Part shown: positions 31,723 to 55,835 of the stretch, piece after piece | How the letters are laid out: every line of letters begins with the position of its first letter | Position numbering within the stretch: position 1 is the first letter of the stretch | NCBI RefSeq assembly: GCF_000482365.1 | Contig: NZ_KI535309.1 | Location: 159,945 to 223,944, forward strand | Reading direction: 5' to 3' | Source: Porphyromonas uenonis DSM 23387 = JCM 13868 | GTDB taxonomy: Bacteria; Bacteroidota; Bacteroidia; Bacteroidales; Porphyromonadaceae | DNA length: 64,000 nt | Position numbers and translations under genes: made by a program | Notes under the pieces: model-generated | Databases searched by the model: none | What the model was told of the DNA's origin: nothing | Seen by the model: only the letters and a program-made list of their open reading frames with translations

Positions 31723-31920
31723 GATTCCTACCTAGGGAATGAGCAAATTCCTCCGTGGATATTTTTGATTTGCTACCTAGGAAATGGCAAATTCTTCGGA
31801 CTTATTTTTTGATTCCTCCGAAGTTTCATTTGATTCCTCCGAAGAATTTTTTATTTCCTAGGTAGGAATTGGACCAATTCCTAGGTAGCTATTTGGCAAA
31901 TTCCTAGGTAGGAATTGAAA
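31723..31920 (+). repeat. CCTAGG palindromic element, copy A (MITE-like)
   Basis: A non-coding element of about 200 bp whose ends are inverted (ATTCCTACCTAGG at the left, CCTAGGTAGGAATTGAAA at the right), with inner inverted arms ATTCTTCGGA/TCCGAAGAAT. It matches the reverse complement of 55565-55764; about 105 bases in the middle appear identical. A CTGACGCAT motif lies on its left at 31610-31618, as it does beside the other copy. Confidence 0.8.
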
Positions 31921-31934
31921 TGTGCGGACAGACC

Positions 31935-31956
31935 GTCCCGTGGAGGGACTTTTTTT
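31935..31956 (+). terminator. Small hairpin plus T-run in the receptor gene leader
   Basis: GTCCC/GGGAC stem (31935-31939 with 31945-31949) followed by seven T residues, 62 bases before the ATG at 32018. It may terminate transcription entering from the repeat or act as an attenuator. A second small stem GGGC/GCCC follows at about 31965-31977. Confidence 0.5.
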
Positions 31957-32017
31957 AAGCTTTTGGGCGTTGAGCCCGTCTAAAACGTTGACACACTTTT
32001 GACACACACGACACACT

Positions 32018-34709
32018 ATGCGACAGATACCGCTACGGAGTCTCTGCCTACTCCTCATACTGCACGCCTTATCCTTTACATTACCCGCACAAGTGATGAC
32101 GACCGTACGAGGAGTCGTACGGGACAGCGCTGAGTCGCCTCTCGTAGGAGCCAACGTGGCATTCTATCGGCACATGCCCTCTGGCGAGCGACTGCTCGTG
32201 GCGGGGGGTACGAGCGATAGCCAGGGACACTTCTCTATAACTCAAGTGCCTCTAGGGCAACTATCCCTAGAGGTCTCCTACATAGGCTACCAGAGCTACC
32301 AAGACGACCTAACGGTCGCTGCGGGGCTCAACCTCGGGGTCATACAGCTCCAAGAGGATGCCCACCTGCTAGAGGTGGTCGTCGTACAAGGCAAGGCGAC
32401 CGATATGACGGTGCGAGGGGATACGATCGCCTTCAATGCTGACGCCTACAAGGTGCCCCAAGGCGCTATGCTCGAAGAGCTGGTCAAGCGCCTCCCAGGA
32501 GCGGAGATCGATGAGAATGGACAGCTCACCATCGGCGGACAGCAGGTGGCGAAGATCATGCTCGACGGCAAGGAGTTCTTTAGCGGGGATACGAAGGTGG
32601 CTATGCGCAATCTACCCGCTACCATAGTGAATCAACTAGAGGTGCTCAGCCAGCAGAGCGATGAGGCGCGTGTCACTGGCTTTGACGATGATGAGGAGGA
32701 GACGGTCCTGAATATACGCACGAAGCCTGACATGCGACAAGGTACTTTCGGACACGCCTTGGCGGGCTATGGCTTGGGCCAGCGCTATGAGCTCAGCGGG
32801 ATGCTCAACTACTTCTCCAAGCAACACCAGACGACGCTCATAGCCGGTAGTAACAATACCAACGGGCAGGGGCTCTCTGACCTAAATCTAGACGATGGCT
32901 CTCGAGGAGGAGGCCGTGGCAGATGGGGCCGTGGCGGAGGAGGCTTCAGACCACAAGGCATCACCACCTCTGCACAGATTGCTGCCAATGAGACCTACAC
33001 GCCTAGCGATCGGCTGGAGGTCAATGCGAATGCGCGCTATGGATATAGCCAAAACGATCTTTCCGCACGTACCGAGACGGAAAACCTCCTACCCGACAGC
33101 CCCAGCACCTTTACCAATGAAACGACCGAGTCGCTCAGCCGTGGGCACAATCTGGGTGGAGATGCTTTTGTCAAGTGGCAAGCGACAGACCGCACGGAGC
33201 TGATCTACCGTCCGGCGGTACACTACAGCTGGGGCATGGCGCAGGAGCAGCGCAACTACCGCACCACAGACAGTGCCGAGAGCGAGCTACATCGTGGCAG
33301 CCAGGAGAGCCTACGGGAGTATGGCGGGCTACGCCTATTTAACATGCTCCTCTTAGGGCATAAGCTCAACGATGAGGGGCGAACCCTCAGCCTACAGCTC
33401 AATGGGGGCTTCCATGGAGACAACGCCAATACCGAGAGCCACTCGACGCTTCACTCGGCTGAGGGGGATCAGTCTCAGCAGGTGCTCATGGAGGATCGCA
33501 GTCAGACCTTTAGCTACCGCATACGCACTGGCTATGTAGAGCCTCTCACGGAGCTGCTCTCGCTACAGGCACAGCTGGAGTGGAGCGACCGCATACGTAG
33601 CAGCGAGCGGGACTACAAGATGGCCGACGCAACTAAGGAGACCAGCATGAGTACTCGTCTGAACTCTCTGAGCGGAGGGGGTGGATCTCAAGGTGGCCAA
33701 CAAACTGATCGACCTGACTGTGGGACTACGTCTCCGCCCTACCTGGATGAGTACGGAGCAGTCGCAACTAATTAGCGAAAAGCCTCACGTACGTCGTGAG
33801 ACAATATGGGCTCCCTCGCTAAGCTTTCGCTATACACCTAATAAGCAGACGATGCTTCGCCTAGGCTATTGGGGACGCTCGGAGATGCCTTCTGCAGGGC
33901 AGATGTACACGATCCCCGATGCGACCAATCTGCGGGAGTCGATCATAGGTAATCCGGACCTACGCCCCAGCTACCAGCATCAGCTGTTTGGTATGTTTCG
34001 CACGTTCCTCCCCAGCACCAGCCAAGCGATCAATCTACGTCTCTTTGGCGCTTATACCCACCACGCTGTGATCAGCGATCAGACGGTCGATGCCAAGACG
34101 CAGCGCAGGCGGATCTCCTATATCAATGCCGATGGAGGGGAATATATGCTTCATGGCAATGGCTCCTTTACCACACCTTTCTTTACCAAGTCGCTATCGC
34201 TGGCGGTCACGCTGGGCTCTGCCTACAACTACCGCTTAGGGCGCATCAACGGGGTGACCAATGGGTCGCACTCATGGACGTTCTCACCAGATCTCTCCCT
34301 GGCTTACTCAAACAGCTGGCTCTACCTACGCGCTAAGGGTGGGGTCAGATACCACTACGGAAGCCAAAGCTTACCGATCGCCACCTCGCCACACACTTAC
34401 GACTGGAACGCCGGAGGCGACGCGTCGGTGACGCTCCCGCTGGGCTTCAAGGTGGAGAGTGAGGCGCTCTACACGCAGGGGGTAGGTTACCAAGAGCCGT
34501 ACAATGTCGCCTCCGTACTATGGAGCGCGGGGCTCTCTTACTCCTTCCTGAAGGATCAAGCAGCGACCCTACGCATCAAGGTGTACGACCTGCTTAACCA
34601 GCAGCAGAGCATCACGCGTCAGGTCTCCGCTACGGAGATCAGCGACACCTGGTCCAACAGTCTCGGGCGCTACGCCATGCTCCACTTCATCTACCGCTTC
34701 CGTCTCTAG
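32018..34709 (+). pseudogene. TonB-dependent-receptor-like outer membrane beta-barrel protein, frameshifted
   Basis: Two overlapping frames together encode one protein of about 896 residues. The first frame (32018-33775) has a signal peptide (1-25, ending LPA-Q), a carboxypeptidase-regulatory-like domain (GVVRDSAESPLVGANVAFYR, about 30-110), a plug-like domain (LDGKEFFSGD) and the start of the barrel, with a Gly/Arg-rich loop near residue 295. The second frame, ending at 34709, contains the rest of the barrel (LSFRYTPNKQTMLRLGYWGR, NPDLRPSYQHQLFG) and ends in FIYRFRL. Removing one G from the run of five at 33677-33681 restores the frame (SGGVDLKVANK). It may be a real inactivating shift, a phase switch or a sequencing error. 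It belongs to the outer membrane beta-barrel family of Bacteroidota. Confidence 0.85.
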
Positions 34710-34729
34710 ACAAGTCGACTGCCCCACAA

Positions 34730-34805
34730 GGGATAGCTCTCTCATCTCACTTGCGGAGTACCTCACAGGGATAGCCGTCTCATCTTACTTGCGGAGTACC
34801 TCACA
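34730..34805. repeat. Two tandem 38-bp direct repeats
   Basis: Units 34730-34767 and 34768-34805 (GGGATAGC to TACCTCACA) differ at three positions. They lie 20 bases after the receptor pseudogene. Further right, GAGTAGCCCTTTGTAGGG resembles one arm of the terminator at 29460. Confidence 0.75.
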
Positions 34806-34879
34806 GGCTTCGCGACTCTCACGAGTAGCCCTTTGTAGGGGTCGCACGGCGCGTTCCTGGGAGTCGTTACTCGTCAGGA

Positions 34880-35054
34880 GAGACTGTTGCAAAAGTCAAC
34901 AGTCTCACAATCTTGCAAGCAAGATTGTCCTGACTTTGCAGAAAGGATGAAGCGCAAGGCGCTGAGGGTGAGGTCTGAAGGGAGCACACCTCCGTATGTA
35001 ACCAAAGCCGAATCCCGAAAGCAACACAGCGATTCGCCTTTATGCAACAGTCTC
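34880..35054. mobile_element. Candidate 175-bp MITE
   Basis: The ends are 12-bp perfect inverted repeats, GAGACTGTTGCA (34880-34891) and TGCAACAGTCTC (35043-35054). The left end also contains an internal copy of part of the end (GACTGTTG/CAACAGTC). A perfect 10-bp-arm palindrome ACAATCTTGC/GCAAGATTGT follows at 34908-34929. No gene is inside. No clear target duplication is visible. The size and ends fit a non-autonomous derivative of an insertion sequence not present in the window. Confidence 0.6.
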
Positions 35055-35105
35055 CAGGGACATCGTATATCGCACCGTCATACGTTGCTGGGGGACACAA
35101 TAGCA

Positions 35106-35144
35106 AGAGAGACGTGCATCTGCCCTTGTGGCATGCACGTCTCT
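35106..35144 (-). terminator. Terminator of the SusC/SusD operon
   Basis: AGAGAGACGTGCAT pairs perfectly with ATGCACGTCTCTCT (14 bp). It is about 100 bases beyond the leftward SusD stop at 35242; read leftward, the arm is followed by TTGCTATTG, and read rightward by ATATTATTT. It may serve transcripts from both sides. Confidence 0.65.
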
Positions 35145-35241
35145 CTATATTATTTAGTCGATGGGGAGGCCAGATTTTGGCCTTTTGTCCCCTATCTATC
35201 TACTCCTAAAGCTTGAGGCCCTAGGTGTGACGGATAGACTC

Positions 35242-36906
35242 TTACTTCCAGTTGTGCTCTAGCTCCTTATTTGCGAAGCGATCCTGAAGTGGGAACTCCC
35301 AGTAGAACATGACATCCGAAGCGTCCTTCTTGAGGTCTAGGTAAGACTTCGTTACTGTCGTAGCAGACTGACCCTTGGTAAGACCCTCCTGAAGAGGCTT
35401 ATTGGTACGATCTATAGGATCACCCCAGCGCTTGAGGTCAGTCATGCGGGTACCCATACCCACTAGCTCACGAGTACGCTCATTCTTGATCGTCTCCATC
35501 ATCTCCTTCTGGTTGCTAGCCTTGAGCTCAACTTCTAGACCACGGCTCTTGCGGAAGGTCTCCAGAGTAGTCTTTGCAGCAGTCCAGTCACCACTCCAAG
35601 CCTGAGCCTCAGCCTTGATGAGCCAAGCCTCTGCTATATCAAAGAGGTGTGTAGAGTGTGCATAAGAAATACGATTACGCTTAGCATCGGTATCCAAGCG
35701 AGGATTACCTCTAAACTTGGAGACAAAGGTAATCACCTCTTGACCATCAACCTCTCCATAGAATACGGGGAAGTCGTTGGTTCCTTTACGCCCATCAGTG
35801 TCCTCTAGCCAAACTTGACCTCGAAGGTCCTCCTTAGAGTCTTCAGGATCTTCAGGATCCATGGATTTCTTATAGAGGTCAATGAGGTACTGGTTGGGGA
35901 ACCATGTAGGAGAGGAGAACTCGTACTGAACCTTCTTACCTGTATTTGGATTGACGTTATCATAGATCCATAGACCATGTAGGATACCGTATACACGACC
36001 AACCTTTTGCGTAGCGTAGGTCTTGATCATGATCTCAGAAGAGTTCTCTGTGATCCAGAGCTTCTTCAGGCCATCTGTCGTAGCCTCCCCAAGAGGATAG
36101 CGGGTGATAAAGCGATCTACCTCCTTGATAGCATCCTGATAGCGGTGCATCTCTAGGAAGATACGAGCGCGTACAGCATAGCAGTAATCCTTGATCAGGT
36201 AGCATGGGATGCCGTCCTGCTCGAGGACGTCCGGATCTGCTAGAAAGTTATCCTTGGCAGGGATAACCTTAGAAGCCTCCTCCAGCTCGTTTAGACACCA
36301 CTCGTAGACCTCCTTTTGGGTAGCTCTCTTCTTATTGGTCTTCTGAAGCAGAGGATCATACTCCTTGATAAGGACGATACCAGGCTCCTGACCATCATTG
36401 TCGCTATAACGCTTAGAGAAGCGGCACATCAAGCGGTAGTTAGCCAGTGCACGGAGTGCTCGAGCCTCAGCGATATAGATATCTAGCTTTTTAGGCTCAT
36501 CGTCCTTGAGAGTCTTCATGAGCTCTTCGTTTGCCTTCATCTCATTGGCTCTCATGATGAAGTAGTTGGCATCCTTGATAATTGTAGCGAAGGATCCGAA
36601 GTAAGCAGCGATCATGTCGTTGCTGGAGAGGTTTTCCTTATTCCACGAGTAGAACGGGAAGTAAGTATTACCATCTTTCGCTGTCAGGTGGAATAGGTCA
36701 GCCTGCATATCTCCTAGGAAGAGGTTGCCTGGAGACTCCGCCCCACGAAGGGTCGAGTAGAGACTCTCACGGAGCCACTTGACCTCCTGGAAGCTCTTTA
36801 GAGGCTTCTGCTCCTTAACGCCCTCGGGTACGAAGCCGACCTGGCAAGCGGAGAATGCTACTAACGATAGGATGAGTAGTCCTATAGTCTTGATATATCT
36901 TTTCAT
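35242..36906 (-). CDS. SusD/RagB family outer-membrane lipoprotein
   Basis: A 554-residue surface lipoprotein. The lipobox is LVAFSACQ, with the lipidated cysteine at residue 21. The SusD fold is recognisable from the TPR-like helices in the first half (IAEARALRALANYRLMCRFSKRYSD), NERTRELVGMGTRMTDLKRWG near residue 490, and the conserved end YWEFPLQDRFANKELEHNW. SusD/RagB proteins act as the lid of a SusC/RagA barrel and bind the substrate. No glycoside hydrolase or sensor gene is next to it, so peptides rather than glycans may be the ligand, as for P. gingivalis RagB; this is inference. It follows the SusC gene by 36 bases in one operon. Confidence 0.93.
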   Translation of the reverse strand: MKRYIKTIGLLILSLVAFSACQVGFVPEGVKEQKPLKSFQEVKWLRESLYSTLRGAESPGNLFLGDMQADLFHLTAKDGNTYFPFYSWNKENLSSNDMIAAYFGSFATIIKDANYFIMRANEMKANEELMKTLKDDEPKKLDIYIAEARALRALANYRLMCRFSKRYSDNDGQEPGIVLIKEYDPLLQKTNKKRATQKEVYEWCLNELEEASKVIPAKDNFLADPDVLEQDGIPCYLIKDYCYAVRARIFLEMHRYQDAIKEVDRFITRYPLGEATTDGLKKLWITENSSEIMIKTYATQKVGRVYGILHGLWIYDNVNPNTGKKVQYEFSSPTWFPNQYLIDLYKKSMDPEDPEDSKEDLRGQVWLEDTDGRKGTNDFPVFYGEVDGQEVITFVSKFRGNPRLDTDAKRNRISYAHSTHLFDIAEAWLIKAEAQAWSGDWTAAKTTLETFRKSRGLEVELKASNQKEMMETIKNERTRELVGMGTRMTDLKRWGDPIDRTNKPLQEGLTKGQSATTVTKSYLDLKKDASDVMFYWEFPLQDRFANKELEHNWK

Positions 36907-36942
36907 AATTTCTGTGCTATAAGTATAGAGGGTTCGACACTA

Positions 36943-39900
36943 TTAGAAAGTAATCTGTAGACCACCAACATACTGACGTGTGTTAGGATATTGGTTCATA
37001 CTCATGTTACCCACAGCCTCTGGATCATACCCAGAGAATTGAGTAAAGGTCAGCAGGTTACGACCCGTCACGTAGACACGTACGCCAGAGATGAGGCCGA
37101 TCTTCTCAAACCATGCGCTAGGCAGGGTGTATGAGAGACGTAGGTTCTTCAGACGTAGGAATGAAGCGTTCTCTAGCAGACGGCTATCGGACTTCATCTC
37201 CTCACCAAACTTAGGAATGTCTGTCTTCTGACCAGGCTCCGTCCAAGCGTTAAGTAGCTTACGGCTCTTGTTCATGCCTAGGAAAACATCGTTCTTAGAC
37301 ATATTCTCATAGAAGTAGCGGTCGTTGTTGATAACATACTTACCAACGTTGAATGACCAGTCTACATCGAGAGCGAGTCCCTTCCAGCTAGCACCAAAGG
37401 ATAGACCGCCAGTAAATGGAGCCTGAAGGTTCTTACCACTAGCGCGGAGTAGCTTAGCCTCATCGTAGTACTCAGTTACCTCAGAGGTTAGGTTGCCGTT
37501 AGCATCGGGTACATACCACTGCTGCTTACCAGTCTCAGGATTGACGCCTGCATACTCTGCGATAAGGAACTGAGTAGGCTGACCAACCTTGTAGATCAGT
37601 GCCTTCGACGGCATCTTGTACTCTGGCAGATCGTAGAAGAGCTTAGTAACGCGGTTAGCATTGTAGTTCAGCGTTGTAGCTGCATATACGTTCCAGTCAC
37701 GTGTACGAACGATGTCGTAGCTGAGCGTCAGGTCGACACCCGTATTGGCTAGTGAGCCGACATTCTCATAGCGGCCAGAGAAACCAGTAGCATAGGGCTT
37801 CGGTACGAACATCAACATGTCATCTGTGATACGATGATAGATGTTGAGGACTGAGTGCAGGCGATTGTCAAAAGCGTCAAAGTCGACACCGACGTTGAGG
37901 TTAGACTGCGTCTCCCATCCGAGGTCTGGATTACCGATCGTTGAGGTATAGATACCTAGACCCTCTGAGTACTTAGTCTGTCCGTAGCGAGCCATAAAGG
38001 CGAGTGCAGGGATAGAGGAGTTACCCGTAGTACCCCAGCTAGCACGTAGACGTAGTGTGTTGATCCACTTAACGTGATCTAGGTGTGCACGATAGATATC
38101 GTAGGTGGCACCTACTGAGTAGAAGAGACCCTGACGGTTCTTAGCACCAAAGCGAGAGGAAGCATCACTACGTAGAGATAGGTCTAAGTGTAGATAGTTA
38201 TCAAATGAGTAGTTGACACGTCCGAAGAATGAGAGGTAGGAGTACCCACCCTTAGACTGAGAGGGAGGAACTAGGTCACTAGCATTGGTGCTACCCTGAG
38301 AGAGTAGTCCTAGCTGAGGATCCTCGATACCAGTAGCTACAGCAGAGATACCATCGTAGCGATACTGTACCCACTCCTGTCCTAGGAGGACGGTCATCTT
38401 GTGCTTGTCAGCAAAAGAGAAGCGATACTCGCCCGTATTGGTCCAAGTGAAGTTGTTGTCTAGTGAGCGACCCTCTAGACGGCTACCACGATCATCAACT
38501 AGAGTCCAGTAGCGACCAGGCTTGTAGAATACAGACTCTGTACCATAGGTTAGGTCGATACCTGCCTGAGTCTTGAGGATCAGGCCCTTGATTGGGGTAA
38601 CCTCAGCATAAGAAGCTATGCTAGCCTGATAGGTGTTGTAGTTGTGTGGCTGATACTTCTCTGTAAAGTCTGGGAAGATCTCCATACCAAATAGAGATAC
38701 GTAGTACTTTCTCAGATTACCGTCAGCATCATATGGAGACATGTAGCGAGGCTTGATGGCTGCACCAAAGGTACCAGCATCTGCGTAAGCACCACCCTCG
38801 AAACCTGCTGAAACCTGGTCGGTGTATGCTCCGAAGACATTTGCACCTACCTTGAGCCAGTCCTTGACGCGAGAGTCTACGCTGACACGACCGTTGTAAC
38901 GCTTGAAGCCGTTGCGACCACGTGTGATACCCTCCTGAGAGAGTGTACCCATAGAGATGTAGTACTGCGTACGGTTGCTACCACCACTCATAGAGAGGTC
39001 AGCCTGATACGTAGGCGCCTTCTTGCCCATGAAGAAGCGGAGCCAATCAAAGTTGTAGTCTGCAGGCTCATAGAACTCTATATCTGCAGGAGCGTTAAAG
39101 CCCCAAGCCTTGTTCGGGAGCTTATACTGAGACTTCTCTGTGAGCTTCTTGATTAGGTCATTCTTTGTGTACTTACCAGTGAAGTCGTAAGGCTTGAGAT
39201 ACTCATACTTAGCCTGATGCTCTAGTAGCTCATCGCCACTCATGAAGTCTTCGTAAGGCTTATAGTTTGCAAACTCAGAGATACCGTACTGTGCATTGAC
39301 GGTGATATGTCCGAGTCCCTCCTCAGAGCGCTTACCCTTCTTGGTCGTGATGACGACGACACCGTTAGCAGCACGAGCACCATAGATAGAGGTAGAGGAA
39401 GCATCCATGAGGACGTTCATACTCTCGATATCGTTAGAGTTCATAGCCATGACGGTGTTAAGGTCGGTCTGCATACCATCTACGATGTAGAGGGGAGCAT
39501 TACCAGCAGTTAGAGATCCAGTACCGTGAATCTGAACGTCAGCTACAGCATTAGGATCACCAGAGGTGGTCAAGACACTCATACCAGCGACTTTACCCTG
39601 GAGTGCGTCCATCACGTTGGCTACAGGCTTCTCAGCGATCTGCTCACCAGAGACGCGAGCCATAGATCCTGAGATCGTGCTGAGCTTCTGTCCTGAACCG
39701 TAACCTACGACAACCACCTGGTCTAGGACCTGTGAGTCGGCCGTCATGACGACATTCATCACCTTAGTGATAGGTAGGGTAACTGTCTTAAGACCTACGT
39801 AGGAGAAGGTCAGCTTCTTAGCAGAGGCAGGTACACTAAGTGTAAACTTACCATCTACGTCTGTCGTGGTACCGATAGAGGTGTTGCCCTCGACAACCAC

Positions 39901-40026: not shown

Positions 40027-40233
40027 AAAACTCTTCTTTAGCGTTAGTTATACATTGATAGTTTGAATAGTCATAGTCACACGCCACGTCACGCTAGCGA
40101 CTGGGCAGTGTGTATCCGACATAACCTAAGAACAAGCGATAGAGTCTCTTCCCACACTATAGTTTGTACAGGCACCACCCTATACAAGCCCTTTTAGTAC
40201 GGTGGAAGGGATCCTACCTTAACCTTTCGGAAA

Positions 40234-40265
40234 CAAAGGTAGTACAAAAATGCGGGGAAAGCAAA
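40234..40265 (-). promoter_or_regulatory. Promoter of the SusC/SusD operon
   Basis: On the minus strand TTTG (40265-40262) and TACCTTTG (40241-40234), spaced by 20 bases, match the Bacteroidota consensus at both elements. The SusC start is 208 bases downstream, an unusually long leader with several weak stems (for example TTGTA/TACAA). Confidence 0.7.
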
Positions 40266-40490
40266 TCACACCCCTCTCCACCATGCCCCGTACGACCCGT
40301 CGCTGCATATGATTCAGTCGCTCGTTACAGTTTGCATTAATCTCGTTATTTACTAGGGATAGAGCAGACAAGCTGGTGTAATCAAGACGACTTCAGGCAG
40401 CTCTACCGAGGCAAGGGAAGATCGCCACAAAGCTAGTGAGTAAAAATGCCAGTGGCACTAGTGACTCTCATGTCCCTAGGTGCTACCCCT
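40266..40490. other. Non-coding stretch upstream of the susC promoter
   Basis: No supported gene. An ACTAGTGACTCTCATG segment near 40458-40472 resembles the palindrome at 11581. Otherwise I see nothing. Confidence 0.3.
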
Positions 40491-40537
40491 AAACTCTAAT
40501 CTCTGACCTCTAACTTCTAATCTCTAACTTCTAATCC
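40491..40537. repeat. TTAGAGG-type heptads (one arm)
   Basis: Heptads CTCTAAT, CTCTGAC, CTCTAAC, TTCTAAT, CTCTAAC, TTCTAAT directly abut the left end of the element at 40542. A matching partial arm (CTAACTTCTAATCTCTAATT) lies just after its right end, at 40920-40940. Confidence 0.75.
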
Positions 40538-40541
40538 AGGA

Positions 40542-40918
40542 CTGACGCATTATAATTGCTCCGTTAGGAGCTACACGTTAGCGACAAGCGAGACTTGGAT
40601 GAGTTCATTATATATACTATTGCTGTCCGACTACTCGACTTCGACCAATCTACAGTTTTCTTCGTAGGAAACTCTAGTTTCTTACCTAGGAAACTCCAGT
40701 TTCTTACCTAGGAAACTCTAGTTTCATACCTAGGAAACTTTAGTTTCATACCTAGGAAACTTTAGTTTCATGCCTAGGAAACTCCAGTTTCACCCCGTAT
40801 GGAACTTTAGTTTCACCCAAGTGGTACTGATAGTTAGCTCATTTCTGCAGAACGATCTACTCGATGCCCCCCTCAAAAAGCTTTCACTGGACAGCAATAA
40901 CTATATATAATGCGTCAG
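40542..40918. mobile_element. Candidate 377-bp MITE with 13-bp perfect terminal inverted repeats
   Basis: The ends are CTGACGCATTATA (40542-40554) and TATAATGCGTCAG (40906-40918), perfect inverted copies. A second inverted pair lies just inside: CATTATATATACTATTGCTGTCC (40606-40628) with its near complement at 40889-40912. The centre is the 22-bp palindromic tandem array. There is no open frame of note. It lies between the SusC promoter and the rsmH promoter. Confidence 0.6.
40659..40814. repeat. 22-bp palindromic tandem repeat array
   Basis: About seven units, five of them of exactly 22 bases (40681-40790), following the pattern CWTACCTAGGAAACTYYAGTTT. Each unit contains two palindromes, CCTAGG and GAAACT-NN-AGTTTC, so each can fold alone or with any neighbour. 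The outer units are degenerate. There are no variable spacers, so it is not a CRISPR array. Confidence 0.8.
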
Positions 40919-40944
40919 CCCTAACTTCTAATCTCTAATTTGAT

Positions 40945-40952
40945 TACCTTTG
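40945..40952 (+). promoter_or_regulatory. -7 box of the rsmH-ftsW cluster
   Basis: TACCTTTG, an exact -7 consensus, directly after heptad repeats. It is 87 bases before the start codon at 41040. The heptads occupy the -33 position, so the repeat family may contribute to or interfere with this promoter. Confidence 0.65.
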
Positions 40953-41039
40953 CAGTAACTCTGTGAGCATGGCGATCAGACTGCTTTCGTCGGAAGCGCA
41001 CTGAACTCTCTGTCAAACGTTTATCACTCTTTACCTCCT

Positions 41040-41972: not shown

Positions 41973-41984
41973 GCGGGATGAGCT

Positions 41985-42665: not shown

Positions 42666-42695
42666 TCTCTCGCCTCTTTAACGCACCACTCCTCT

Positions 42696-44936: not shown

Positions 44937-44960
44937 AGCGGAATCCTCTCTAAGATAGAT

Positions 44961-46460: not shown

Positions 46461-46524
46461 ATAACGCACTTTGTCTCTCACTTAGTTCTTTCCCTATAAT
46501 CTTTATCAACTTACCCATCACACT

Positions 46525-47784: not shown

Positions 47785-47812
47785 TTTATAGACTTACAAC
47801 GATCTCACAGAT

Positions 47813-49198
47813 ATGCAACGCAACGAATATATCATCCTAGGAGCTGGAGAAAGTGGTGTCGGAGCTGCCATCCTAGCTCAAAAGCAAGGGCTCCCCGTCT
47901 TTGTCTCCGACTCGGGACAGATCAAGCCACAATACAAAGCGGAGCTGGAGCAGTACAGCATCCCCTACGAGGAGGGTGGACACACCTTCGATCGTATCTT
48001 ATCAGCCAAAGAGGTGATCAAGAGCCCAGGCATCCCAGATAGTGCACCGCTCATACGACAGCTCGCAGAGCAGCAGACACCTATCATCAGTGAGATCGAG
48101 TTCGCCTACCGCTACGCTGGCGATAGTATGATGATCGCCATCACAGGGAGCAACGGCAAGACCACTACGACCAACTGGCTCTACCACACGCTCCACAATG
48201 CGGGACTAGATGTCTCCATGGCGGGCAATGTGGGTACCAGTCTAGCTCGTCAGGTGGCGCTCGCTCCGCACGCTTACTATGTGATCGAGCTGAGTAGCTT
48301 CCAGCTGGATCATATGTACCAGTTCAGAGCGCACATAGCGATCCTGCTCAACATCACGCCCGACCATCTAGATCGCTACGATCATAAGATGGAGCTATAC
48401 GCACGGGCCAAGATGCGCATCACACAAAACCAACAGCCCACCGACTACTTCATCTCGTGGATCGAAGACGACTGGACACAGCGCCTACTCAAGGAGCCAG
48501 GCATGGGAGCAGGACGACGGATCTTCTTCTCCACCGAAGGCTCTTCAGACGAAGCAGTCGTGGCTTCTAGTCACGATGGGAAGATACGCTTTGCCCTCCA
48601 GGAGCCAGTCGTTGAGATGCCAGAGAATGCTCTAGCTCTATCGGGCAAGCACAACGTGCAGAACGCCCTAGCCGTCGGTTGCGCTGCGCAGGCCTTAGGC
48701 GTCAAGCCTGAGGTCATACGAGCCTCCCTAGAGACCTTTACCAATGTGCCCCACCGCCTAGAGTATATCGCCAGCATCGATGGCGTAGACTATATCAACG
48801 ACTCCAAGGCGACCAACATCAACAGTACTTGGTACGCACTAGAGAGTATGCGCAAGCCGACGATTCTCATACTAGGAGGTACCGACAAGGGCAATGACTA
48901 CAACGATCTGATGGATCTAGTCAAGGAAAAGGTGGTCGGACTAATCTATATGACAACTGACTCGGCCAAGCTCCACCGTAGCTTTGACAGCGTCATACCA
49001 CGCCACGAGGAGGTTACCTCAATGCGTGACGCTATCGCCGCCGCACGCCAGATGGCCCAGGCGGGAGACACCGTGTTGCTGTCGCCAGCCTGCGCTAGCT
49101 TTGACCTCTTCACCTGCTATGAGGATCGTGGCGATCAGTTCAGAGCGGAGGTACTCGCCATCGCTCAGCAACAGCCAGATACCGACCGTTCGCTCTAG
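47813..49198 (+). CDS. murD: UDP-N-acetylmuramoylalanine-D-glutamate ligase
   Basis: A 461-residue cytoplasmic Mur ligase adding D-glutamate to UDP-MurNAc-L-Ala. The N-terminal Rossmann-type domain begins YIILGAGESGVGAAILA. The P-loop AITGSNGKTTTT is at residues 109-120. Further signatures are ELSSFQLDHM, LLNITPDHLDRY, GKHNVQNALA, DYINDSKATN, ILGGTDKGNDY and LLSPACASFDLF. It follows mraY by 28 bases and precedes ftsW by 15. Confidence 0.96.
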   Translation: MQRNEYIILGAGESGVGAAILAQKQGLPVFVSDSGQIKPQYKAELEQYSIPYEEGGHTFDRILSAKEVIKSPGIPDSAPLIRQLAEQQTPIISEIEFAYRYAGDSMMIAITGSNGKTTTTNWLYHTLHNAGLDVSMAGNVGTSLARQVALAPHAYYVIELSSFQLDHMYQFRAHIAILLNITPDHLDRYDHKMELYARAKMRITQNQQPTDYFISWIEDDWTQRLLKEPGMGAGRRIFFSTEGSSDEAVVASSHDGKIRFALQEPVVEMPENALALSGKHNVQNALAVGCAAQALGVKPEVIRASLETFTNVPHRLEYIASIDGVDYINDSKATNINSTWYALESMRKPTILILGGTDKGNDYNDLMDLVKEKVVGLIYMTTDSAKLHRSFDSVIPRHEEVTSMRDAIAAARQMAQAGDTVLLSPACASFDLFTCYEDRGDQFRAEVLAIAQQQPDTDRSL

Positions 49199-49213
49199 CC
49201 TATCCGACACACT

Positions 49214-50623
49214 ATGATACCACAAGACGAATACAATACGAGCCAAGAGACCACCCCCTCGAACATCTTCGACCTCTCTCCCCATGAGGAGACAGCACCG
49301 ATTGATAACGAGAGCGGAGGACCAACTGAAGAGCACCCGCAGGAAGAAGCTTCCCAGGAAGAGCCGACACCACGCAAGCCACGCATCACAGGTGACCGCT
49401 CGTTGTGGTTTCTCTACTTTGCGTTCTTGGCCACGTCGCTACTCTTCATCTACAGTGCTACCAGCACACTCGCCTACCGTGGGGAGAGTCTGTACGCTCC
49501 CTTCACGGGTCACCTCAAGCACATTATCCTGTCAATCTTTGCAGCGTGGTTTTGCTCACGGCTGAGCAACTCTTGGATACGCTTAGGTGGGATGGCATTC
49601 TTCGTTCTGATGCTCTTAGCCGTCATTGCGACCCCTTTCATAGGTACGGAGACCAATGAGGCTAAGCGTACGCTCTTCGGACTCCAATTCTCAGAGTTCT
49701 ACAAAGTTGGCGTCATCTGTCTCGCTTCCACTGTCCTCTCTATACGTCAGCTGGGCAGTCTCAATCGGCGCTTCTACATCTTTTGTGGGATCACCGCTAT
49801 CGGGCTGCTCTTCGTTGCCAAGGAGAGTCTCTCCATGGGACTCATCCTCGTCGCCTTCATCCTCGGCATCGGACTCGTACAGACGGGACTCTCCAAGAGC
49901 TTGCTCATGATCGGTGGCATAGGGCTGGGGATCATCACGCTACTCCTAGCCTGTCTCGTGTTACTCCCCGACAGTATTATCAAGCAAAACAGTAGTACGG
50001 CACGCTGGAAAGGTCGTATCGAAGACTTCACCGCTAAGTCAGACTCCAGTAAGTTTGTCATTGACGAGGACAACTTTCAGGAGCAGCATGCACGCATCGC
50101 CATCGCACGGAGCAATGGTACGGGCGTCTTCCCTGGCAATAGTGTAGAGCGAGACATCCTCCCCGAGGCTTACTCCGACTTTATCTATGCGATCATCATC
50201 GAGGAGACAGGCTTCATCGGTATGATCTGGGTGCCACTACTCTACATCCTGCTCTTCTTCAAGCTCTCTCGCTGGGCGACCCGCTCGCAACGTGACTGGC
50301 AGCGCATCTTCCTACTTGGTGTCGGCATCATGTACACCACGCAGGCGATCATACATATGTGCGTCGTCACGGGTATCTCGCCTAATACGGGTCAGACGTT
50401 ACCACTCATCAGTCGTGGTGGTTCTTCGCTCCTTGCTACCTCGATGGCTATCGGAACCTGCATAGCGATCACAAGACATATCCGCGAAGATGAGCACAAG
50501 CGTGCACTAGAAAAAGAAGAGCAAGCAGAGGTGACAGCTCCCGAATCTGTTACGGAGACGACCTCTACAGTTGCAGAGAGCCCCCGACTCACCTCCTCCG
50601 ACGAGGCAGATGATATGGCGTAG
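49214..50623 (+). CDS. ftsW: FtsW, septal peptidoglycan glycosyltransferase (SEDS family)
   Basis: A 469-residue SEDS protein with about ten membrane segments that polymerises glycan strands at the septum with the class B PBP encoded four genes upstream. The first 65 residues are an acidic and proline-rich cytoplasmic tail; a second polar tail of about 40 residues lies at the C-terminus. Conserved SEDS segments include GAVR-type FYKVGVICLAS, ARIAIARSNGTGVFPGNS, the EETGFIG motif and SPNTGQTLPLISRGGSSLL. It is the last gene of the cluster. murG, murC and ftsQAZ, which normally follow, are absent here. Its stop is 3 bases from the stop of the converging aroE. Confidence 0.95.
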   Translation: MIPQDEYNTSQETTPSNIFDLSPHEETAPIDNESGGPTEEHPQEEASQEEPTPRKPRITGDRSLWFLYFAFLATSLLFIYSATSTLAYRGESLYAPFTGHLKHIILSIFAAWFCSRLSNSWIRLGGMAFFVLMLLAVIATPFIGTETNEAKRTLFGLQFSEFYKVGVICLASTVLSIRQLGSLNRRFYIFCGITAIGLLFVAKESLSMGLILVAFILGIGLVQTGLSKSLLMIGGIGLGIITLLLACLVLLPDSIIKQNSSTARWKGRIEDFTAKSDSSKFVIDEDNFQEQHARIAIARSNGTGVFPGNSVERDILPEAYSDFIYAIIIEETGFIGMIWVPLLYILLFFKLSRWATRSQRDWQRIFLLGVGIMYTTQAIIHMCVVTGISPNTGQTLPLISRGGSSLLATSMAIGTCIAITRHIREDEHKRALEKEEQAEVTAPESVTETTSTVAESPRLTSSDEADDMA

Positions 50624-50626
50624 TCT

Positions 50627-51391
50627 CTACGCCTGACGGTTCCAAATGTGCCAGGCGTAGCGAGCCTGCACGAGGAGCATCTTCAGCCCATTGATCGTCG
50701 TCGCACCCTGCTCACGACAAGACTTGAGGAAGCGCGTCTCCTCGGGATTGTAGATCAGATCCATGCAGAGATGCTGTGGCGTGATCGCCTCGTAGGGGAT
50801 CTGCGGGCGCTCCATAATGAGAGGCCCCATGCCGACAGGGGTCGCATTGATGATGATCCACTTGTCCGCTATCAGCTCGGGCGTCAGCGCGCTATAGGAT
50901 AGGATATGTGGAGCTTGCGGATCTCTACTGACCAGCGTACAGTCACGACCGAGACGCTTGAGCGCCTGTGCCACCGCCTGCGCGGCGCCACCCGTTCCGA
51001 AGACGAGGGCATGCTGCTGCTCGGGCGTGAGTAGTGGCTGGAGAGTCTCCACGACACCCTGCACATCCGTGTTGTAGCCGAAGAGACGCATCCGACCGCC
51101 CGCGTGGTCCACGACGATCGTATTGACAGCTCCCACATACTTTGCCTCAGTGTCTATCTCATCTAGATAGTTGCACACCTCCACCTTGTAGGGGCTCGTC
51201 ACATTCAGTCCCACGATGGCGGGGTTAGACTCCAGCCAGGGTCTCAGCGCCGAGAGATCATCCAGCTCCTGTAGTATATAGCGAGCATCGATCCCCTGGG
51301 AGTCAAAAAGGTCGTTGAAGTAGTCTGCCGAGAGCGAATGCCCTACGGGCTTACCTATCAGTGCGTAAATGCGTTGCATACTCTTATTCAT
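50627..51391 (-). CDS. aroE: Shikimate dehydrogenase
   Basis: A 254-residue enzyme of the aromatic amino acid pathway reducing 3-dehydroshikimate with NADPH. Substrate-binding residues appear in IGKPVGHSLSADYFN, and the catalytic lysine lies in GLNVTSPYKVEVCNYLD. The cofactor-binding segment is ALVFGTGGAAQAVAQALKRLG. INATPVGM and GLKMLLVQARYAWHIW complete the family signature. It lies 8 bases after ubiE in the same leftward transcript. Confidence 0.95.
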   Translation of the reverse strand: MNKSMQRIYALIGKPVGHSLSADYFNDLFDSQGIDARYILQELDDLSALRPWLESNPAIVGLNVTSPYKVEVCNYLDEIDTEAKYVGAVNTIVVDHAGGRMRLFGYNTDVQGVVETLQPLLTPEQQHALVFGTGGAAQAVAQALKRLGRDCTLVSRDPQAPHILSYSALTPELIADKWIIINATPVGMGPLIMERPQIPYEAITPQHLCMDLIYNPEETRFLKSCREQGATTINGLKMLLVQARYAWHIWNRQA

Positions 51392-51399
51392 TTATCTCT

Positions 51400-52116
51400 T
51401 TAGGCTTCTGCGGTATATAAGACGCAGATCCCTAGAGGCATCTCTTTGTACTGTACCTCTCTAAAGCCTGCCCTACAGATCAGCGCCGTCATTGCCTCTC
51501 GCTGTGGCATCGCCTTGATAGATGCTGGGAGGTAGCTGTAGGCAGAGCGATCGTGAGCGCACAACTGTCCGATCCACGGGATCAAGTGCTTAGCATAGAT
51601 ATTATAGCCCCGGAGCAGTAGCCCCCCACGAGGTTCGCTTAGCTCCAGGATAGCGAGCCTCCCCCCTGGGCGTAAAATGCGGTGCATCTCTCGCAAGCCT
51701 TGTAGTGGATCCGAAAAGTTGCGAATCCCCAGAGTGCAGGTCACCGCATCGACCGAGTGCGAAGCTAGAGAGAGCTCCTGACAGTTCTCCGCAGAGAGCG
51801 TCACCACGGGCGCCGAGTGGACAGTCCTCTGGATACGTTCGGCAGCCACCGCCAGCATACCCTCCGAGAGGTCCACACCGACGATCTCACGCACCGACGG
51901 CAAGTAGCGAGAGAGCATCAGGATCATATCACCCGTACCGCAGGCCAGGTCAGCCACACGACGAGGCGCATAGTTCGCCAGATGCTCTATGACCTGCCAG
52001 CGCCAGGTCAGATCCATACCGCCCGTCATGAGGCGATTCATCGAGTCATAGCGTCCAGCTATGCGGTCAAACATCTGTCGCACGTAGCGAGACTTACTAT
52101 CGAGAGGTGAAGGCAT
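51400..52116 (-). CDS. ubiE: Demethylmenaquinone methyltransferase (UbiE/MenG)
   Basis: A 238-residue SAM-dependent methyltransferase for the last step of menaquinone synthesis. Family signatures are YVRQMFDRIAGRYDSMNRLMTGG at the start, VADLACGTGDMILML (SAM motif I), VGVDLSEGML, DAVTCTLGIRNFSDPLQGL and RPGGRLAILELSEPRG. The C-terminal region has the expected GICVLYTA. Bacteroidota use menaquinone, so MenG is the probable role. It is first of a two-gene unit with aroE, behind a strong hairpin that separates it from purC. Confidence 0.95.
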   Translation of the reverse strand: MPSPLDSKSRYVRQMFDRIAGRYDSMNRLMTGGMDLTWRWQVIEHLANYAPRRVADLACGTGDMILMLSRYLPSVREIVGVDLSEGMLAVAAERIQRTVHSAPVVTLSAENCQELSLASHSVDAVTCTLGIRNFSDPLQGLREMHRILRPGGRLAILELSEPRGGLLLRGYNIYAKHLIPWIGQLCAHDRSAYSYLPASIKAMPQREAMTALICRAGFREVQYKEMPLGICVLYTAEA

Positions 52117-52134
52117 AGTAAATAGAGAGATTAG

Positions 52135-52180
52135 AACCAGCGACTAGGGAGGTTGTACACAGCCCTCTCAGTCGCTGGTT
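52135..52180 (-). terminator. Hairpin between purC and ubiE
   Basis: AACCAGCGACT/AGTCGCTGGTT (11 bp) is extended inward by GGGAGG/CCCTCT after a one-base offset. It starts 24 bases beyond the purC stop. Read leftward, the following sequence is CTAATCTCTCTATTTAC, only moderately T-rich. Confidence 0.65.
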
Positions 52181-52203
52181 CATTTATATAGTTATGGAGC
52201 CTC

Positions 52204-53148
52204 CTACTTCTTGAGGAAAGCTAGCAGATTGTTCTCAATACGCTTAGCCACATCTTGGGTTTGCTCCTTGACGAAGGTCTTGCCCGTGATGTGCTCGTAG
52301 AGCTCTATGTAGCGCTCGCTCACAGAGGCTGCATACTCAGGCGTGATGGTCGGCATCTTCTGTCCAGCCTTACCCTGGAAGCCCTGCTCGATGAGCCACT
52401 GACGAACGAACTCCTTCGAGAGCTGTCGCTGAGGCTCACCCTTAGCTTGGCGCTCCTCGTAGCCCTCTAGGTAGAAGTAGCGAGAGGAGTCAGGCGTGTG
52501 GATCTCGTCGATCAGGATCACCTTGCCATCTTTCTTGCCAAACTCATACTTCGTATCCACGAGGATCAGCCCCCGCTCACGAGCGATGCGCGTCCCCTCC
52601 TCAAAGAGCGTCTGCGTGTACTGCTCGATGACCTTGTAGTCCTCCTCGGAGATCAGGCCAGAGGCGATGATCTCCTCACGGCTGATGTTCTCGTCGTGAC
52701 CCTCGTCAGCCTTAGTCGTAGGCGTGATGATCGGGTGTGGAAGGCGCTCATTCTCCTTCAGACCCTCGGGTAGTTGTATGCCACAGATCGTACGCTCGCC
52801 AGCCTGGTAAGCACGCCATGCGCTACCAGCTATGTAGCCGCGAACGATCATCTCTACCTTAAAAGGCTCGCAGCGATGTCCCACCGTAACCATCGGATCG
52901 GGAGTCGCTATCTTCCAGTTGGGCACGAGATGCGCCGTAGCGTCGAGCTGCTCAGCAGCTATTTGGTTGAGCACCTGACCCTTGTAGGGAATACCCTCAG
53001 GGAGTACCACATCAAAGGCTGAGATCCTATCCGTAGCGACCATTGCGATCAGATCGCCCTCAAGGAAGTATACATCTCTCACCTTGCCATGAAAGACAGA
53101 CTGGATACCTGGGAGAGATAGGTCGGTGTGTGTTAGAGCTTGATTCAT
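52204..53148 (-). CDS. purC: Phosphoribosylaminoimidazole-succinocarboxamide synthase
   Basis: A 314-residue SAICAR synthase of purine synthesis, in the long form of about 310 residues common in Bacteroidota. Signatures are [71 protein letters not shown] and [15 protein letters not shown]. It is the last gene of the leftward greA-HIT-phoH-purC group, 83 bases after phoH. Confidence 0.96.
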
Positions 53149-53231
53149 TGTATTATGATCAATAATTGATTTGCTAAAAAGGGGATTGCCCTCCTCCCGC
53201 CTTAGCCGAGAGAGAGCGTGTTTCTATGAGT

Positions 53232-54254
53232 CTATGAGTCTTTACCTTGATCCTTATCTAGGTCTATATCTTGATCTTGGTGAGTCTCTTGTGCGGGTCG
53301 TCCGCCCTGCAGTGCTTGATGCTCATTGCGATCGTAAGCGTCTACGACAAGCTGCACGATCGGGTGACGCACGATGTCCTGCGCATCAAAGTATACGAAA
53401 GGTATCTGCTCCACATCGCCCAGGATCCGCTCAGCAATGCGCAAGCCCGAGGTGACACCCCGCGGCAAGTCGACCTGCGAGAGGTCGCCCGTGATGATCA
53501 TCTTACTATTGCGTCCGAGACGAGTGAGAAACATCTTCATCTGATGATGGGTCGTATTCTGCGCCTCGTCAAGTATGACGACGGCATCGTTGAGCGTACG
53601 ACCACGCATGTATGCTAGCGGAGCAATCTGTATCACGTCACTCTCCATATAGGTGCGCAGGCGCTGCGTCGGGATCATCTCCTCGAGCGCATCGTAGAGC
53701 GGCTGGAGGTAAGGGTCGAGCTTGTCCTTCAGCTCACCGGGTAGGAAGCCCAACTTCTCGCCCGCCTCGACAGCGGGACGCGAGAGTATGATACGTCGTA
53801 CCTGCTTCTCCTTAAGTGCTTTGACCGCCAGTGCTATCGCTATGTAGGTCTTGCCCGTACCAGCTGGTCCGATCGCAAAGAGCATATCGTGATCCGCTAT
53901 GGCCTCCACCATCTCACGCTGGTGAGCGCCTCGGTAGCCTATGCTACGCCCCCTCGCTCCATAGAGCAGATGATTCGGAGCCACCTTGACCTCAGGGAGC
54001 TCCTCTCCCGTAGCCAGCTTGCGTATGGTCTGCTCCGTCAGGAGATTGTACCGCAGGACATGCTGTACCAGCTTATCGAGGAGCGCTGTCAAGAGCTGTA
54101 TATCGGTCGTATCACCCAGTATCTTGATGATTCGATCATGAGCCACAATCCGCAGCTTAGGATAGAGGTTGCGCAGCAATAGCAGGTACTCACGGTTAGG
54201 GCCGTAGAGCACCGCTGGATCTATCTCCTCTAGGATATATAGTCTCTCAGTCAC
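53232..54254 (-). CDS. PhoH family ATPase
   Basis: A 340-residue PhoH-like P-loop ATPase. An N-terminal KH-like region (about 1-100) is followed by the Walker A motif GPAGTGKT at residues 129-136, SRPAVEAGEKLGFLPGELKDKLDPY, and the Walker B-type VVILDEAQNTTHHQMKMFLTRLG. TGDLSQVDLPRGVTSGL follows. PhoH/YbeZ proteins are linked to ribosome and RNA metabolism, often with the endonuclease YbeY, but no ybeY is adjacent here. The last 40 residues are highly charged and repetitive (DQDIDLDKDQGKDS). The gene lies 19 bases after the HIT gene. Confidence 0.93.
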   Translation of the reverse strand: MTERLYILEEIDPAVLYGPNREYLLLLRNLYPKLRIVAHDRIIKILGDTTDIQLLTALLDKLVQHVLRYNLLTEQTIRKLATGEELPEVKVAPNHLLYGARGRSIGYRGAHQREMVEAIADHDMLFAIGPAGTGKTYIAIALAVKALKEKQVRRIILSRPAVEAGEKLGFLPGELKDKLDPYLQPLYDALEEMIPTQRLRTYMESDVIQIAPLAYMRGRTLNDAVVILDEAQNTTHHQMKMFLTRLGRNSKMIITGDLSQVDLPRGVTSGLRIAERILGDVEQIPFVYFDAQDIVRHPIVQLVVDAYDRNEHQALQGGRPAQETHQDQDIDLDKDQGKDS

Positions 54255-54273
54255 TAGGCTTCGCTACTCCTTA

Positions 54274-54666
54274 TTATATATGAGCTGCTATCTCGGAGGC
54301 GATGCGAGCCATCTCCTCGTCGGTAGGCTTCGTAGCAAGCGGTCCGTGAGCCACGTCACCCTCACTATTGATCGGTATCAGGTGGACATGAGCGTGTGGC
54401 ACCTCTAGTCCTAGGACCAGCGTAGCCACCTTGCGGCAGTGTGTCGTCTCCTGTATAGCGCGGGCCACCCGCTTGGCAAAAGCCATCAGCCGAGCCAGCT
54501 CCTCGTCCGTTAGGTCGTAATAGTAATCGACCTCACGCTTCGGGACCACCAGTGTATGCCCCAGCTGATAAGGATTGATATCTAGAAAGGCGTAGTGCTC
54601 CTCGTCCTCCGCAATGCGGTAGGAGGGGATCTCACCTGCTATGATGCGACTAAAGATTGAAGCCAT
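54274..54666 (-). CDS. HIT family hydrolase
   Basis: A 130-residue histidine-triad protein. The motif HAHVHLIPI (about residues 95-103) carries the catalytic triad. Typical lead segments are SIFSRIIAGEIPSYRIAEDE and INPYQLGHTLVVPKREVDYYYDL. HIT proteins hydrolyse nucleotide phosphoramidates such as adenosine monophosphoramidates; the physiological substrate is unknown. It lies 47 bases after greA. Confidence 0.95.
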   Translation of the reverse strand: MASIFSRIIAGEIPSYRIAEDEEHYAFLDINPYQLGHTLVVPKREVDYYYDLTDEELARLMAFAKRVARAIQETTHCRKVATLVLGLEVPHAHVHLIPINSEGDVAHGPLATKPTDEEMARIASEIAAHI

Positions 54667-54713
54667 AGAGCGTTCGTTGTTTTTGGGAGGAACTGTTCAA
54701 GAAGAGTGTCACC

Positions 54714-55184
54714 CTATCGAGTGATCTCTAGGATCTCAAAGACCAGCTTACCCGCAGGCACCTGTATCTCCGCCACATCGCCCACCTTCTTGCCGAGGAG
54801 TCCCTTGGCAATGGGGGTATTGACCGAGATCTTGTTCTCCTTAAAGTTTGCCTCAGCATCCGAGACGATGTAGTAGCTCTTCTCCTCGCCCTTCTTCTTA
54901 TTGAGCAGGCGCACATGGTTCAGTATCTGCACCTCATCGGTCTTAATCTGCGAGGGCTCCAGCACACGGGCGTTGCTCAGCTGTGCCTTGAGCATAGCGA
55001 TCTTGTCCTCGAGGTGAGCTTGCGCCTCCTTGGCAGCATCGTACTCAGCATTCTCAGATAGATCTCCCTTGTCACGCGCCTCAGCAATCTGCTGTGTGAC
55101 CTTGGGCCGCTCCTCAGCCTCCAGCTGCTTGATCGTATTGTTGAGGGCATCGTATCCCTCTTGGGTCATATAGTAATATCCCAT
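54714..55184 (-). CDS. greA: Transcription elongation factor GreA
   Basis: A 156-residue factor that helps stalled RNA polymerase cleave its transcript. The N-terminal coiled-coil hairpin shows YYMTQEGYDALNNTIKQLEAEERPKVTQQIAEARDKGDLSENAEYDAAKE, with the functional acidic tip at DLSENAEYD. The C-terminal FKBP-like domain reads SVNTPIAKGLLGKKVGDVAEIQVPAGKLVFEI. It is first in the leftward group, with a -7 box about 220 bases upstream. Confidence 0.96.
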   Translation of the reverse strand: MGYYYMTQEGYDALNNTIKQLEAEERPKVTQQIAEARDKGDLSENAEYDAAKEAQAHLEDKIAMLKAQLSNARVLEPSQIKTDEVQILNHVRLLNKKKGEEKSYYIVSDAEANFKENKISVNTPIAKGLLGKKVGDVAEIQVPAGKLVFEILEITR

Positions 55185-55403
55185 AGATGATTAGGTGATA
55201 ATGGTGTCTAATTCAGTCTAGTGCATATCCTATGAACCACACCCCGCTAGCCATCTATCGGCTGGCGAAGGCACCTCATAGATACAAAACAAATGAGGAC
55301 TTACTCCCACACAGCACCCCCTATCGTCTAGAAGAGCCACATCAGAGAAGCCTCGTCATATATTGAGTGTGCTACGCCGTCTGCACACCTCTCTTACTGA
55401 GTG

Positions 55404-55411
55404 CAAAGGTA
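55404..55411 (-). promoter_or_regulatory. -7 box of greA
   Basis: On the minus strand TACCTTTG is an exact -7 consensus. The greA start is 220 bases downstream, giving a long leader. No TTTG lies at the -33 distance. Confidence 0.5.
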
Positions 55412-55564
55412 CTAAAAAAATGTTTTCCACCCCATGCGCCTTCCACGCAAGCATAGACTATGTAACACTCACAAGTGGCTGCTGGAGGGGTGCACGGGTG
55501 GTGACTCGTCCCATCGAATTATTCGATTTGAGAAGCTGTGATCTCTCAGACATCTCCGACGATT

Positions 55565-55764
55565 TCATTTCCTACCTAGGAATTTGCCAAATAGCTACCT
55601 AGAAATTTCCCCAATCCCTACCTAGGAAATAAAAAATTCTTCGGAGGAATCAAATGAAACTTCGGAGGAATCAAAAAATAAGTCCGAAGAATTTGCCATT
55701 TCCTAGGTAGCAAATCAAAAATATCTACGGAGGAATTTGGGCAATTTCTAGGTAGGAATTGAAA
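55565..55764 (-). repeat. CCTAGG palindromic element, copy B (MITE-like)
   Basis: The reverse complement of copy A (31723-31920), with a long identical core and the same nested inverted arms (ATTCTTCGGA/TCCGAAGAAT and TTTCCTAGGTAG-type ends). The right end GGTAGGAATTGAAA is followed 16 bases later by ATGCGTCAG (55781-55789), the same motif found beside copy A and at both ends of the element at 40542. It lies just upstream of the metG promoter. The remaining 150 bases up to greA show nothing else. Confidence 0.8.
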
Positions 55765-55835
55765 CGAGCTCATTTTTATCATGCGTCAGCGCAGATTCAG
55801 ATACGATGATACCTTCGTAACAGTCTCATTTTTGC

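Follow-up and report, generated by a model that had tools for sequence, protein, structure and literature searches.

The 64,000-nucleotide stretch of the Porphyromonas uenonis DSM 23387 = JCM 13868 genome analysed here (contig NZ_KI535309.1, positions 159,945 to 223,944; hereafter the window) contains two CCTAGG elements of about 200 bp, which a preliminary description made from the sequence alone had presented as an inverted pair 24 kb apart. A pair is the wrong scale for these elements, as they are 2 among 73 copies of the same core in this genome. The family very probably consists of non-autonomous miniature inverted-repeat transposable elements (MITEs) of the ISAs1 family, of which the two window elements are decayed copies; we assign it to the ISAs1 type because its ends are common with those of an ISAs1 insertion sequence, full copies of which in a related genome are flanked by 10-bp duplications. 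The family appears to be new, and while its apparent way of moving is ordinary, a hairpin with a very uniform centre is unusual. In what follows, G000 is the P. uenonis genome itself, the remaining G-numbers are other genomes of the genus Porphyromonas, and L-numbers are individual loci.

The core was counted with a 32-nt piece at up to three mismatches, which gave 34 copies on the forward and 39 on the reverse strand of the P. uenonis genome and none in a reversed control. Alignment of the 73 copies revealed shared sequence extending past the boundaries given in the preliminary description, with a leader starting CAGGGCTGACGCAT, a palindromic array, and a tail finishing ATGCGTCAGCCCTG. An intact element is approximately 356 bp long and comprises 14-bp inverted ends, a short leader, an array of roughly 200 nt built of 21–23-nt palindromes, and a tail of roughly 125 nt. 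Allowing two mismatches, a left end was found in 41 copies, a right end in 30, and both in 23 (reversed control, 0 left and 0 right); with three mismatches these numbers rise to 45, 34, and 25 (control, 0 and 2), and with four to 52, 36, and 29, figures that include chance matches (control, 3 left and 13 right). Sixteen of the 29 two-ended copies found at this last threshold measure 354–358 bp, and the longest closed open reading frame (ORF) among the 29 has 68 amino acids. Across the whole P. uenonis genome, end matches number 94, compared with 4 in the control.

We then compared the 10-mers flanking the 23 copies with both ends at up to two mismatches. These agree at eight or more positions in 12 copies (10/10 in five, 9/10 in four, 8/10 in three), at seven positions in 2, and at two to five in the remaining 9; among 506 control pairings of mismatched left and right flanks, one reached 8/10 and one 7/10. 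Exact flanking repeats longer than 3 bp are of length 10 only. Twelve further loci bear ends, five of them with end pairs whose duplications match at 8, 10, 10, 9, and 10 of 10 positions, and seven without a pair. Two of the 23 copies, L132 and L133, have an identical MITE and identical flanks as printed (G000:C3:90128-94595 and 120186-124217), which may mean either that a segment was duplicated or that the assembly produced the repetition. An empty site was examined for one copy (L171), the flanks of which were compared with 25 other genus genomes. Both flanks were matched in four of these (G001, G022, G024, and G025), all of which are without the element at that site; the matches to the two flanks share exactly 10 bp in G025 and G022, and alignment to the joined flanks of L171 recovered a single copy of the target in these two genomes and a more divergent gap in G001 and G024.

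A likely parent is present in the genus. The ISAs1 model NF033564 matched in 22 of the 26 genus genomes, with matches above cut-off in 16, and the two matches above cut-off in P. uenonis are 3′ parts at contig ends (L219 and L232), both of which continue into a perfect end, TTATAATGCGTCAGCCCTG, one end each. In G025, two ISAs1 elements (L208 and L226) are 1318 bp long and have the ends of the MITE on both sides together with exact 10-bp duplications. The 14-bp ends of this insertion sequence and of the MITE are the same, and the 19 nt of TTATAATGCGTCAGCCCTG are common to it and the right end of the MITE; it differs from the MITE in its length, in its transposase gene, and in lacking the hairpin array. 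Ends (up to one mismatch) number 89, 32, 44, 26, and 113 in the hairpin-bearing genomes G000, G001, G022, G024, and G025, respectively, and 0–12 in the other 21 of the 26. An ISAs1 transposase supplied in trans would move the element by recognising the common ends, and the copies would then decay after insertion.

What had been proposed for the two window copies is borne out in part. When 31724-31921 was aligned without gaps to 55562-55759 in reverse complement, 186 of 198 columns were identical (93.9%), including an unbroken stretch of 109 matching nucleotides (31758-31866 with 55617-55725), so the two stretches are indeed reverse complements with a well-matched core. The coordinates and nested inverted repeats originally reported are correct for both copies; no ORF of 80 amino acids or more lies wholly inside either core, in agreement with the reported absence of an open frame (a 98-aa TTG ORF at 31858-32154 on the reverse strand overlaps the edge of copy 1); and both copies lie before gene starts, in gaps between divergently transcribed genes. 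The preliminary description had also held that elements so alike must have moved recently or be maintained by conversion. Mobility of the family is borne out by the 10-bp target duplications and the empty sites, but these two copies themselves look old and decayed, each having one imperfect end. The left end of copy 1 differs from CAGGGCTGACGCAT at three positions, and the reversed control gave left ends at up to three mismatches in 0 of 73 copies. A credible far end was searched for in both copies and found in neither; a candidate 528 bp away from copy 1, with four mismatches, was rejected, as the reversed control gives such ends in 13 of 73 copies. The 94% identity of the two copies is instead explained by a centre that is nearly unchanged among the copies in this genome, whether it is kept so by selection or by conversion.

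Each window core folds to one long imperfect hairpin, with RNA fold z scores of −8.0 and −8.3 for the two strands of copy 1 and −8.7 for one strand of copy 2, and a DNA fold z score of −6.7 for copy 2. The middle of this hairpin, a centre of about 63 nt, changes far more slowly within the P. uenonis genome than the leader and tail around it. Measured over 19 of the 29 two-ended copies, the leader lies 8.5% from consensus, the centre 1.25%, and the tail 11.3% (Wilcoxon, centre below tail, 6.6e-5; centre below leader, 1.2e-4), where consensus strings were set by eye and gaps were not counted. The ten copies dropped were the duplicate L133, the non-standard L140, L141, and L174, and others with a missing or odd-length tail. 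Two repeat units are present in 58 of the 73 copies, three in 12, and one in 3, and copies with a number other than two had their centre scored over the first 35 nt only. Because the 73 copies were found via the centre, its slow change could be an artefact, and we therefore repeated the analysis starting from the leader. This search returned 33 matches; 24 copies hold the core (one with two leaders), and their centre distance is 1.2%. The tail was set here at a constant length of 125 nt, and its distance may be inflated by this; it differs by 16.4% in the 18 copies where it can be aligned and exceeds the centre in all 18. Eight leader places are without a core at the usual distance: five lack the middle, two are cut by another sequence near a contig end, and one is split by another MITE and has an intact core; a diverged centre was found at none of them. 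The centre may be preserved by selection, as a DNA site or an RNA, or by copy-to-copy conversion.

As a separate observation, the reverse strand of the centre (window 31843-31760) reads, by eye, GGAGG, a 6-nt spacer AATCAA, ATG, and a short frame MKLRRNQ...; a 21-nt unit equals seven codons, so the repeats preserve this frame.

The preliminary description had suggested a search for copies in related genomes, and the hairpin was found in G001, G022, G024, and G025. A 198-nt query matched 9 of 38 genomes of the family; five of these (P. uenonis included) have at least 21 matches each among the matches listed, and four of a second genus have one weak match each. The 16-nt unit, at one mismatch, occurs 168 times in P. 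uenonis and no more than twice in each of 148 other genomes from the order, a draw in which the genus was represented by one other genome and the four hairpin-bearing relatives were absent. Best ungapped identity to the 60-nt P. uenonis centre has a median of 0.80 in G001 (0.73-0.95), 0.87 in G025 (0.85-0.90), and 0.77 in G024 (0.70-0.80), each over 20 loci, and is 0.87 at one locus in G022 and 0.74 at four loci of the second genus, compared with 0.47 in a shuffled control; the loci were chosen as best matches, which tilts these identities upwards. P. uenonis and G001 have exact runs of 38-42 nt in common. By eye, the arms of many G001 and G025 copies hold CCACGTGG-type palindromes in place of CCTAGG. 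Of 20 G025 copies, 19 have in common an unvarying 284-bp frame whose leader and tail are different, and 3 are in end-bounded elements of 518-578 bp with duplications of 10, 10, and 9 of 10; no such end-bounded element was found around the 20 G001 copies. Fourteen loci from other genomes were selected for folding and 13 were folded (L238 gave no centre); z was −4.5 or lower in 11 of the 13, the exceptions being L194, which was mis-centred, and L035 (second genus), and in L195 just 15 pairs span the centre. Related centres recur across genomes with other arms and flanks, and the hairpin may have travelled in frames of more than one kind.

Among 47 copies from G001 (25) and G024 (22), picked by similarity to the P. 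uenonis element, 19 have at least 250 bp of homology to the locus of a P. uenonis copy, and about 9 of these, by eye, lie in the same intergenic gap, where the chance expectation of 7-10% per copy is a guess. Hairpins near greA in G001, G024, and G025 were found by position and so were excluded from these counts. A further palindrome array was seen upstream of metG (L039:640-800) in a relative that is 90.6% identical over 6.5 kb, with a different gene upstream of that metG gap. One possible view of the hairpin, which we put forward tentatively and think somewhat unlikely, is that selection maintains its centre as a portable module, acting as an RNA element or as a site recognised in DNA, at dozens of intergenic places in several Porphyromonas species. 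Different transposon frames would carry it, and its stems would be rewritten between genomes (from CCTAGG-type to CCACGTGG-type) while remaining palindromic, the centre keeping its spacing and most of its letters.

Several results weigh against an ISAs1-type MITE with a preserved hairpin. The P. uenonis assembly is without a complete ISAs1, both matches being cut by contig ends, and G024, a 250-contig draft, carries elements yet has 0 ISAs1 matches. ISAs1 whose ends are the same or nearly so also occurs in G006 and G010, where no hairpin match was obtained, so having the parent is no guarantee of having the MITE. At up to three mismatches, 28 of the 73 copies have no left end and 39 no right end, and flanks agree at seven positions or fewer in 11 of the 23 end-intact copies. 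Both ISAs1 ends occur within 320 bp in 1 of 20 G001 copies and 5 of 20 G025 copies, so in those genomes the hairpin often lies outside a recognisable ISAs1-ended element. The between-genome median of the centre (77-87%) is no better than the identity of long genic matches (73-95%). Finally, the covariation term is 0 in an alignment of 44 P. uenonis copies (of 51 listed standard copies), with two-sided change in 1 of 28 pairs; covariation is absent because paired columns hardly vary.

An alternative for the uniform centre alone is that it reflects conversion or template switching among some 70 copies, that is, concerted evolution and not selection, and we regard this as quite possible while leaning slightly against it. 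The varying number of units and the five elements that lack a middle indicate that units recombine, and a centre that is uniform within the genome (median 98% to consensus) and 77-87% identical between genomes is what species-wise homogenisation would produce; on the other hand, P. uenonis and G001 share exact runs of 38-42 nt, and the leader and tail of the same copies have not been homogenised. A multiplied family of structured RNAs or transcription terminators could account for the strong hairpin and for the finding that just one of the 73 copies overlaps an ORF of at least 100 amino acids, yet it is improbable: Rfam has 0 matches at gathering score within the window, covariation is absent, and transposon ends and duplications are present. 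Nor does the placement of the copies look like that of a terminator, since among the 71 that could be classified (by ORFs chosen by length, without a gene caller) 42 lie between tandem genes, 20 between divergent genes, and only 9 between convergent genes; the copy that overlaps an ORF is one of the two left unclassified.

Short-palindrome arrays between genes also occur as REP/BIME and REPIN clusters, and in description the modular plan of end, repeated middle, and end resembles that of the BOX elements of pneumococcus. Mobilisation of the palindromes by a Y1 (TnpA-REP) transposase, as in the REPIN/RAYT system, would agree with the GTAG followed by short palindromes that can be seen by eye and with two Y1_Tnp matches in P. 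uenonis, one above cut-off. We nevertheless rejected it as scarcely credible, because the distribution of Y1_Tnp does not fit: it was found in 3 of 26 genomes (G000, G001, and G017), of which G017 has no element match, and it is absent from three of the five element-bearing genomes (G022, G024, and G025). The inverted ends and 10-bp duplications fit an ISAs1-type transposase, and placement between divergent genes in 20 of 71 cases likewise sets the present family apart from REP/BIME and REPIN clusters. Only slightly less remote, and in our judgement very unlikely, is the inversion system raised in the preliminary description, in which the two window copies recombine and flip the intervening 24 kb. 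The copies are inverted, 94% identical, and both located where synteny with G001 and G025 breaks. Copy 2 fills a gap at such a break, as homology with relatives is lost at 55425-55433 and picked up again at 55802-55813; the sequences on either side of copy 1 lie some 64 kb from each other in G001 and, with their order swapped, some 5 kb from each other in G025. However, the presence of 73 copies in both orientations leaves this pair no special relation, no recombinase was found among eight window proteins scanned (including the genes flanking each copy), and the segment at 31.7-55.7 kb is not inverted as a unit in G001 or G025. In G001, 36-55.4 kb of the window is collinear (41.0-55.4 kb maps to 205.5-219.9 kb on the forward strand), 32-34.7 kb is found at a different place, and metG is located 61 kb off on the other strand (281.4-285.9 kb, reverse); in G025, metG is 14 kb off on the same strand. 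The flip is therefore unsupported, and with both copies at synteny breaks, it is plausible that recombination takes place at repeats of this kind or close to them.

The closest published element we found is BrickBuilt, a MITE of the same genus with the same modular plan. As described in the available text of PMC4596501, this P. gingivalis element has a leader, an array of 23-nt repeats that varies in number, and a tail, is intergenic with predicted long stem-loops, occurs in 19 copies in ATCC 33277, and has IS5-family parents. Its ends begin GAGACC and are IS5-like (GAGACCTTTGCA-like), whereas those of the present MITE are CAGGGCTGACGCAT and do not match; its duplications vary in length or are missing, whereas those described here are a constant 10 bp. 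The words "asaccharolytica", "uenonis", and "CCTAGG" do not appear in the main text of that paper as available, nor does "ISAs1" in the available text of a MITE review (PMC10969869); PMC5771137, from its accessible portion, concerns P. gingivalis. In the literature on Porphyromonas MITEs and repeats and on ISAs1 MITEs, no title or abstract opening names this element, with subscription papers mostly outside that coverage.

The window holds other repeats, listed with the two copies in Table 1. A third MITE at 40537-40923 is an intact member of a sister subfamily with an inner array of another type and an exact duplication; similar elements elsewhere (L302, L303, L304, and L308) have duplications of 8, 10, 10, and 10 of 10. 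Dispersed heptamer arrays (TTAGAGG / CCTCTAA) occur in the window at 11604-11636, 16418-16452, 31621-31718, and 40485-40534, often inside or beside these MITEs, and the third MITE sits inserted in one. A further array type, a 22-nt palindromic array (AGTTCCTCCCCTGGAACTAAAA), lies at 11364-11413, with similar units after copy L126. Another small dispersed element, of 175 bp, occupies 34880-35054 and has ends GAGACTGTTGCA/TGCAACAGTCTC, as listed for MITE464/ISPg4 in a table of PMC4596501; among the matches listed it is full-length in G001, G022, G024, and G025, mostly at 93-98% identity and often above the identity of neighbouring genes, and a similar element splits copy L300. MITE464/MITEPgRS of P. 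gingivalis, with ends GAGACTGTTGCA in the same table, are likewise small and dispersed, but their ends differ and they are unrelated to the hairpin MITEs described here.

Table 1 Repeat features of the window, with positions counted from its first nucleotide.
Feature	Position	Strand	Basis
Copy 1 left terminal repeat, imperfect: GACTGCTGACGCAT, 3 mismatches to CAGGGCTGACGCAT	31605..31618	+	end search
Copy 1 TTAGAGG-type heptamer/14-mer repeats, from left end to core	31621..31718	+	
Copy 1 hairpin core with both arms and centre, lacking a credible right end	31723..31920	+	
Target duplication ACTTCTAATC, left of third MITE	40527..40536		
Third MITE, 14-bp ends as in the CAGGGCTGACGCAT family (1 mismatch each), type 2 inner 22-nt array	40537..40923		
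Palindromic array within third MITE, 22 nt x 6.8	40665..40815		
Target duplication ACTTCTAATC, right of third MITE	40924..40933		
Copy 2 hairpin core; neither a standard tail nor a far end recognisable	55565..55764	-	
Copy 2 leader GACGCATGATAAAAATGAGCTCGTTTCA, 0 mismatches (G000:C4:215704-215731)	55760..55787	-	
Copy 2 terminal repeat CTGCGCTGACGCAT, 2 mismatches	55781..55794	-	count by eye

What seemed an odd inverted pair becomes a resolved transposon family with a likely parent, defined ends, target duplication, and empty sites. Its unusual part is a hairpin centre that outlasts its ends and tails and stands in different frames in related genomes. This centre makes it possible to ask directly whether a mini-transposon has been co-opted as a site across the genome or whether its copies are homogenising each other, and the location of such repeats at synteny breaks has a bearing on how these genomes rearrange.

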